Below the pieces are notes generated by a model. The model did not search any database, was not told where the DNA came from, and saw nothing but the letters and a program-made list of their open reading frames with translations. The position numbers and the translations under genes are program-made. Source: Candidatus Dormiibacterota bacterium (GTDB taxonomy: Bacteria > Vulcanimicrobiota > Vulcanimicrobiia > Vulcanimicrobiales > Vulcanimicrobiaceae). From it: a stretch of DNA of 64,000 bases. Positions 9,953 through 37,634 of this stretch are shown piece by piece. How positions within the stretch are numbered: position 1 is the stretch's first letter; every line of letters begins with the position of its first letter. Location of the stretch: NCBI GenBank assembly GCA_035532835.1, contig DATKQG010000096.1, positions 1-64,000 of the forward strand. The letters run 5' to 3'.

Positions 9953-12700
<2,748 letters not shown>

Positions 12701-12887
12701 CGCGAGCCTAACGACCGGCGCGGGAGCTTGCGAGACGTGGGGGACCGTTCGTCAGCGCGCCTCCTGCGCGCTTCCTACTCCTATGTTTTTGTGCAACGGC
12801 CAAAGGAGGTCGACATCCATGTCGATTGCACAAAAATCACAGGTCCCCCACGTCCCGCAAACTCCCGCGCCGGCCGTTAGGCTCGCG
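12701..12887. repeat. Structured inverted-repeat element, copy 1
   Basis: 187 nt. Outer arms 12701-12746 and 12842-12887 pair in perfect register over 46 positions with only three mismatches (12714/12874, 12727/12861, 12733/12855) and no bulge. Inside: helix B AGCGCGC/GCGCGCT (12754-12760/12766-12772, loop CTCCT); helix A TTTTTGTGCAA/TTGCACAAAAA (12786-12796/12826-12836); helix C TCGACA/TGTCGA (12810-12815/12820-12825) within helix A. Possible pseudoknot CTCCT (12778-12782) with AGGAG (12804-12808). The core is closely repeated at 37494-37590. It starts right after the gyrB stop. Function unknown. Confidence 0.9.
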
Positions 12888-12901
12888 GCGAGGTAGCGAA
12901 A

Positions 12902-12931
12902 AAAAGGGCCACGCATCGGCGGGGTCCTTTT
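12902..12931. terminator. Bidirectional intrinsic-terminator-like hairpin
   Basis: AAAAGGGCCACGC, loop ATCG, GCGGGGTCCTTTT. One mismatch and one G-T pair interrupt the stem; an A run precedes and a T run follows, so it could stop transcription both ways. It separates gyrB and repeat copy 1 from the envelope operon. Confidence 0.6.
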
Positions 12932-12965
12932 GCGCGTTCAGGGTATAACGACTCTCGGAGGGAGC

Positions 12966-36411: not shown

Positions 36412-37442
36412 AAATCGCGATCGACGCCCAACTCGCCGTCGGAACCGCGACCGGCATCGGCGAATACGTGAACGGCCTCGTCGATGCGTTGCGAGCCGAA
36501 GGCCTCGACATCGTTCCGCTGTTCGAGCCGAAGCTCGACCCCTGGCGTTTCGACCGGCGCGTGTATTGGGACCAAGTGCTGTTGCCGCAACGCGCGCGAG
36601 CGTGCGGAGCCGATCTCTTGCACTGCGCTTCGGGTACCGTGCCGGTCACCGCCACGATGCCGGTCGTCGCGACGGTTCACGACGTCGCATGGCTGCGCGT
36701 TCAAGAGCACGCGCGCCCCTACGCGCGCTACTATTTCGGCCGCTTCGCAACCGACCGCTATCGGCGACTTGCCGCAATCGCCGTCGACTCCGCATTTTCG
36801 CGCAGCGAACTCTTGGAAATGGTCGACGGCCTGCGCGCCGAGCGCGTCCGCGTCGTCTATCCAGGTGTAGCCCACGATTTTAGCGCGCTCGAGCGCCGCG
36901 GCGGGGACGGACGCACGATCCTGGTCGTCGGCACCGTCGAGCGCCGGAAAAATCTCGAACTGATCGTGCGTTGCCTGCCCTTCCTGGAGAACGCTCGGCT
37001 GATTTCGGTGGGCCCGCACACGCCGTACCGCGATGAGTGCGAAGCCATGGCTCGGGCGCTCGGCGTCGGAGATCGCGTCGAGTTTTGCGGATACGTCGAT
37101 CGAGAGCGCTTGTTGGAACTCTATGCGACCTGCGCCGTCGTTGCGATGCCCTCGCGCTACGAAGGCTTCGGTTACGGCGTCGCGCAAGCGCTGTGCGCCG
37201 GCGTTCCGTGCGTCTCCTCCGATTGCAGCTCGCTGCCGGAGATCGCGCAGAACGACGCGCCGGCGTTACCGATCGATCACGTGCAGCCGTGGGTCGAGGC
37301 GTTGGACGCCGCGTTACGCGGAGAGGCCGACCCGCGGGCCCGCGCGGCCCGGCCCGGCGCCATCGAACGATTTAGTTGGAAGCGCAGCGCGCAGGCGATG
37401 ATCGAAACATACGAACTCGCGCTTGCTGCAAGCCAGCGCTAA
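36408..37442 (+). CDS. GT4-family glycosyltransferase
   Basis: 344 residues, GT-B fold. N-terminal MKIAIDAQLAVGTATGIGEYV with the Gly-rich acceptor loop, VVATVHDVAW, inter-domain ILVVGTVERRKNLELIV (typical of GT4 donors), and the EX7E-type motif MPSRYEGFGYGVAQALCAG. The donor is a nucleotide-sugar; the product is unknown. Ends 7 nt before repeat copy 2. Confidence 0.9.
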   Translation: MKIAIDAQLAVGTATGIGEYVNGLVDALRAEGLDIVPLFEPKLDPWRFDRRVYWDQVLLPQRARACGADLLHCASGTVPVTATMPVVATVHDVAWLRVQEHARPYARYYFGRFATDRYRRLAAIAVDSAFSRSELLEMVDGLRAERVRVVYPGVAHDFSALERRGGDGRTILVVGTVERRKNLELIVRCLPFLENARLISVGPHTPYRDECEAMARALGVGDRVEFCGYVDRERLLELYATCAVVAMPSRYEGFGYGVAQALCAGVPCVSSDCSSLPEIAQNDAPALPIDHVQPWVEALDAALRGEADPRARAARPGAIERFSWKRSAQAMIETYELALAASQR

Positions 37443-37449
37443 TCTCGAG

Positions 37450-37634
37450 CTACTAACCAACAGGCGCGATCCAACCTACCGCATTTGGGGAACCGTTCGT
37501 CAGCCCGCATCCTGCGGGCTTCCTACTTCTACGTTTTTGTGCAACGTTCAAAGGAAGTTCGACATCCTGTCGATTGCACAAAAATCGCAGATTCCCCAAA
37601 TGCGGTAGGTTGGATCGCGCCTGTCGGTTAGTAG
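37450..37634. repeat. Structured inverted-repeat element, copy 2
   Basis: 185 nt. Outer arms 37450-37494 and 37590-37634 pair in perfect register over 45 positions with two mismatches (37459/37625 and 37493/37591). Core as in copy 1: GTTCGTCAG, helix B AGCCCGC/GCGGGCT with loop ATCCT (one compensatory change against copy 1), helix A TTTTTGTGCAA/TTGCACAAAAA identical, helix C TCGACA/TGTCGA with a 3-nt loop. Much of the arm sequence differs from copy 1. The right arm covers the last codons and stop of the convergent gene at 37628. Confidence 0.9.

Follow-up and report, generated by a model that had tools for sequence, protein, structure and literature searches.

The analyzed window is a stretch of 64,000 nucleotides (positions 1 to 64,000 of contig DATKQG010000096.1) in the genome herein referred to as G000. 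Two copies of a palindromic element were found in this window, both on the plus strand. The first copy (12701-12887, 187 nt) directly follows the stop codon of a gyrase B-type gene located at 10778-12700. The second copy (37450-37634, 185 nt) is located between convergent genes, namely a glycosyltransferase gene with its stop codon at 37442 and a minus-strand gene ending at 37628. Each copy consists of a core enclosed by two self-complementary arms. In the first copy, 43 of the 46 positions of the left arm (12701-12746) pair with the right arm (12842-12887), and in the second copy the left arm (37450-37492) pairs with the right arm (37592-37634) at 42 of 43 positions.

The core of the first copy contains hairpin A (AGCGCGC-CTCCT-GCGCGCT, 12754-12772), which has CGTTCGTC (12746-12753) on its 5' side and TTCCTACT on its 3' side. 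It is followed by stem B (12780-12843), formed by pairing of 12780-12796 with 12826-12843 and enclosing both CAAAGGAGG and hairpin C (TCGACATCCATGTCGA, 12810-12825) with TCC in its loop. The second copy has the same parts: hairpin A (AGCCCGC-ATCCT-GCGGGCT, 37502-37520), compensated relative to the first copy, and stem B (37528-37591) with hairpin C inside it (37559-37573). The cores share 88% identity over a 114-nt query. The folding z-scores were -9.9 for the first copy and -15.4 for the second, and none of the 200 shuffled sequences was equally stable. The arms of the first copy contain GCCTAAC/GTTAGGC (near 12706-12713 and 12875-12882), which fits the end boxes of integron attC sites (RYYYAAC/GTTRRRY) and is not shared by the second copy or by others. 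A separate terminator-like hairpin, AAAAAGGGCC...GGGTCCTTTT, was found at 12898-12935, just 3' of the first copy, which makes the element dispensable as a terminator at this locus.

An earlier note on this DNA had given the positions of both copies, the bulge-free pairing of their arms, and the rewriting of arm sequence with complementarity kept. All three observations were confirmed, the middle parts of the arms being unrelated between the two copies. The same note had described the element as present in two copies. This count was wrong, because the core occurs approximately 25 times in G000 (a 2.89-Mb draft of 120 contigs; intact and split copies) and has 17 matches in G001, a genome of the same genus. 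Approximately 20 of the G000 copies are intact, and several are truncated where a contig ends or interrupted by an IS110 element. A lack of further copies, which the earlier note had named as refuting its reading, was not observed; many copies were found. By covariance-model search, 56 of the 117 class genomes carry the element, each having between 1 and 25 matches. Within the phylum searched, Candidatus Eremiobacterota, it was found in only two families (f1 and f2) of one order. Across GTDB species, a DNA pattern for hairpin A matched 26 stretches, of which 23 belong to Candidatus Eremiobacterota. The hosts are soil bacteria of this little-known phylum.

Every intact copy in G000 has a core of approximately 95-113 nt with three covarying stems, and each core sits on a self-complementary stem of its own. 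Most of the genus's intact copies have a total length of 170-195 nt and an arm stem of 36-48 columns or base pairs; this stem is shorter at the loci L073 and L082. Read by eye, the order of parts is arm, CGYTCGTC, hairpin A (TCC in the loop), YTCCTRCTC, stem B, CAAAGGAAG or AAGTTTTGAAG, hairpin C (TCC in the loop), stem B', and arm'. Among 32 copies of the genus, standard pairs occupy 96.6% of 1664 paired cells, compared with 35-47% when the partners are slid, and double changes were found in 32 of the 52 pairs. Covariation is thus far above the slid controls, and the earlier note was right to see a real structured element. An alignment of 75 model-search matches, most of them in other genomes, has 90.3% of its cells paired (36-46% when slid), but was itself fitted to the structure. 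G-U pairs are rare in both alignments.

Neighboring genes were called with a simple purpose-written gene finder. The median distance from the element to neighboring stop codons is 13 nt (144 cases), as compared with 66 nt to start codons (49 cases). Within the genus, 21 of 28 classifiable copies are located between convergent genes, an arrangement found for only 5 of the 58 gene pairs in the window. Such extragenic placement near 3' ends, between convergent or co-directional genes, is that of the REP palindromes, which mostly lie less than 20 bp from 3' ends in the same two arrangements (PMC3733652). A T-rich tract (at least 5 T within the first 8 nt beyond the stem) was found in 1 of 101 copies, and on the other strand in 1 of 102. 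An intrinsic terminator was therefore rejected, since the stem is free of a U tract in nearly all copies. Several copies are interrupted by an IS110 element (DEDD_Tnp_IS110, Transposase_20) within the hairpin A loop, at CATCCT; right halves are found at L015, L022, and L024 and left halves at L028 and L029. The IS110 transposase is encoded at L029:2-886 on the minus strand, and the contigs end inside the IS110 element.

Besides drifting, the arms are replaced. Identical or near-identical cores carrying unrelated but self-complementary arms were found for the pairs L141/L142 (99% core identity), L058/L075 (100%), and L148/L149 (96%), and in these pairs the arms diverge almost from the core boundary. 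In the genome G059, the copies L134-L136 have identical or near-identical cores and share approximately 20 bp of inner arm but differ in the outer arm. Between the orthologous arms of G000 and G001, 41 positions differ on both sides and still pair, as compared with 15 that differ on one side only. The compensated changes almost all lead from one Watson-Crick pair to another, with hardly any G-U or one-sided intermediates. Moreover, the core is inverted between two species at the same convergent-gene locus in two fully assembled cases, L066/L084 and L064/L080. A further pair, L053/L070, also resembles a core inversion, with L053 stopping at a contig end. Template switching between inverted repeats has been reported to homogenize arms and to invert spacers in the available part of one study (PMC8604942). 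In another, sequence histories of RNA genes were consistent with template switching that creates and repairs hairpin stems (PMC8794818).

The flanks of the G000 copies were searched in G001, and five sites were found to be empty there. Three of these sites (L079, L083, and L085) allow a clean comparison of insertion and empty site, while the junctions of L069 and L073 are too diverged to be read. In a family-wide search, contiguous insert-free matches, judged from match lengths, were found across many genera in the cases of L085 and L083 and in one genome, G097, in that of L079. Since these outgroups are also empty, the three copies are insertions in the G000 lineage. At L079, the empty site reads AAACGCCCACGAGTTGAGC|GCTAAAC, and the occupied site consists of AAACGCGCACGAGTTGAGC, the inner arm, the core, the inner arm, and GCTCAACTCGTGCGC; the left flank thus recurs, inverted, at the end of the right arm. 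At L085, the empty site reads TGCGTTGCGCGGAGCC|CAG, and the right arm of the occupied site ends in GGCTCCGCGCAACGCAACG. At both sites, old target sequence makes up the outermost 15-17 nt of the left arm, and an inverted copy of it is present in the right arm. At L083, the inverted target copy spans only 5-7 nt.

Both mobility and polarity were demonstrated for these three insertions. The duplicated sequence comes from the 5' flank in all three, and the right breakpoint is each time the outer end of the arm. An inverted copy as good as that at L079 arose by chance in 5 of 5000 trials of a free search and in none of 4000 when its place was fixed. For L085, it arose in none of 5000 trials. For L083, it arose in 1274 of 5000 trials of a free search, which alone is not significant. 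The support for inverted target copies at the arm ends is good at two sites and weak at the third. For the inner 17-27 nt of the arms of L079, L083, L085, and L142, no match was found in the empty site or in any collected copy. In the occupied/empty comparisons, inverted copies were found instead of direct target-site duplications. Further empty-site pairs in the genera g36, g47, and g44 (74-90% identity) have flanks too diverged for their junctions to be read, and duplication is not clear in them (at most 4 nt at L142). The family of mobile extragenic palindromes is real and, as far as the open-licence literature shows, previously undescribed; searches of this literature returned no account of such elements or of a bacterial repeat that duplicates its target in inverted form.

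The element is probably a non-autonomous mobile palindrome, the arms of each new copy being partly built at the new site by DNA template switching, with a perfect stem unique to each site. In the series of steps that we infer, the core and some of the inner arm would be copied in behind the end of a gene, and the new strand would fold back on itself (snap-back). Its 3' end would then copy approximately 5-19 nt of the adjacent target flank in inverted orientation and return to the original template, which would result in a perfect stem private to that site. Later intrastrand template switching, or hairpin mismatch repair, may keep the arms complementary and sometimes flip the core. The conserved loops and linkers imply sequence-specific recognition, a property that pure template switching does not need; no protein recognizing or mobilizing the element was found. 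The simplest view of its existence is a mainly selfish, REP-like one. More tentatively, and with the balance slightly against it, the element could represent a class of mobile DNA having no fixed ends, which carries only a core and part of a stem and, at every new site, copies the target in inverted orientation to complete its terminal inverted repeats. The arms would then be layered, the inner part coming from the donor and the outer part from the target, and the ends of each copy would for this reason be private.

Several other explanations were considered. A structured RNA, either a 3'-UTR element or a small RNA, could be kept by selection on base pairing while its copies spread by an ordinary process; a CsrA-binding RNA was suggested because the minus strand has GGA in both hairpin loops. 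Such an RNA would agree with the strong covariation in all stems, the location just behind stop codons, and the prevalence of one orientation among co-directional copies in other genera (29 to 5), and csrA is present in G000. Selection on RNA structure was also how the earlier note explained pairing kept without sequence. As the main cause it is not supported, given the near absence of G-U pairs and one-sided changes, the near-identical cores with unrelated arms, and the target-derived arm ends, which it leaves unexplained. Additionally, cores occur in either orientation at orthologous loci, and the orientation bias is reversed in the genus of the window (6 minus, 1 plus). A known Rfam RNA was rejected, since there was no match at the gathering score in the window and none at E-values up to 0.1 in five relatives, and any hits were sub-threshold; the earlier note, which recognized no known family, was right in this respect. 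We consider a structured RNA unlikely, and a CsrA sponge, disfavored by the orientation and G-U data, stays a weak rival. Arm-to-arm conversion at the DNA level, the alternative named in the earlier note, comes closer. A classical REP- or REPIN-type element whose arms belong to the element and then drift in a compensated manner, mobilized by a Y1 (RAYT) transposase or another acting on single strands, appears rather improbable. The element does resemble the CGTC- and GTAG-tagged REPs and BIMEs, all being genome-wide extragenic palindromes found near 3' ends and between convergent genes (PMC3733652); in the genus of the window, hairpin A has CGTC immediately 5' of it and CTAC (GTAG reversed) a short distance 3' of it. 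It is also targeted by an IS110 element, as REPs are (PMC1525189), the IS being a passenger absent from intact copies. However, REPs have 20-40 nt and stems of 5-13 bp (GTAG) or 8-9 bp (CGTC) with a terminal unpaired tag (PMC3733652), so the element is approximately five times larger, with 36-48 bp arms and a core of three stems; its arms are specific to each copy, derive in part from the target, and can be unrelated even on identical cores. It has neither a CCA tail nor a stem that begins with A-T. REPINs moved by RAYTs are likewise small non-autonomous intergenic mobile palindromes in the available parts of their descriptions (PMC3116915, PMC2817692), but the arms of the element, unlike theirs, are not conserved between copies. 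Mobilization by a RAYT was rejected because the Y1 transposase domain (PF01797) is absent from G000 and G001; it was found in 14 of the 117 class genomes, mostly in the family f3, in which the element was not found.

The two remaining explanations concern the empty sites. Insertion of the core into the tips of existing hairpins, such as bidirectional terminators, would make the arms old site-specific palindromes, in agreement with the site-specific arms and with the terminator-like location of the copies behind stop codons and between convergent genes. This is very improbable and was rejected, since the empty sites in G001 hold no palindrome but only the outer part of one arm or less; moreover, no other close long inverted repeat was found among those listed in the window, and the T-rich tract is nearly always missing. 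Alternatively, the empty sites could have arisen by deletion of the palindrome, with one outer arm left behind. Long palindromes are unstable (PMC3733652, on SbcCD), and short microhomology is possible at the junction of L083. Against deletion, the outgroups are empty (many genera for L085 and L083, one for L079), which makes insertion in G000 the parsimonious direction, and the right breakpoint coincides with the outer end of the arm each time. Deletion instead of insertion was rejected on account of the empty outgroups and is very improbable.

Among known processes, template-switch mutations (PMC8794818 and the available part of PMC8604942) share with the element the inverted adjacent copies, multi-base compensated changes, and spacer inversion. 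An inverted adjacent copy relative to the ancestral empty state, which identifies such mutations, is clear at L079 and L085 and short at L083. The known cases are local, whereas here the process is tied to the spread of a conserved core to new sites. The repetitive hairpin-forming and double-hairpin elements of mitochondria also are proliferating intergenic hairpins, some having no flanking duplication and an open mechanism of spread; compared by description, they differ in being mitochondrial, and the available part of their report describes no inverted target duplication (PMC2800124). The element lacks both hallmarks of MITEs: terminal inverted repeats are not shared, the arms being unrelated between copies beyond the core boundary, and there is no direct target-site duplication.

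If spread by template switching is correct, extragenic palindromes can spread without a dedicated transposase, which is an open question for the CGTC class of REPs, known to lack one (PMC3733652), and a mobile element can exist without fixed termini. Covariation is usually taken to prove that RNA structure is under selection; in this family, near-perfect covariation appears to come largely from DNA copying. This calls for caution in covariation-based discovery of RNAs and offers a natural system in which template switching can be measured.

Some individual loci deserve mention. At L130 (G087:C16), two oppositely oriented copies are located approximately 1.2 kb apart. At the site of the G001 element L054 (L173), the G000 contig ends L174 and L175 carry a different core subfamily of similar architecture, both contigs ending inside it. 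A 253-bp stem at L057 (G001:C118) was rejected, since the start of this contig is an inverted copy of approximately 250 bp around the element, probably an assembly chimera at the contig end caused by the palindrome. A second abundant palindromic repeat, of the TGTCATCCTGAGC...GTCGAAGGATGAC type, was found beside L136 and L137 (G059) and L143 (G092) and is widespread in these genomes.
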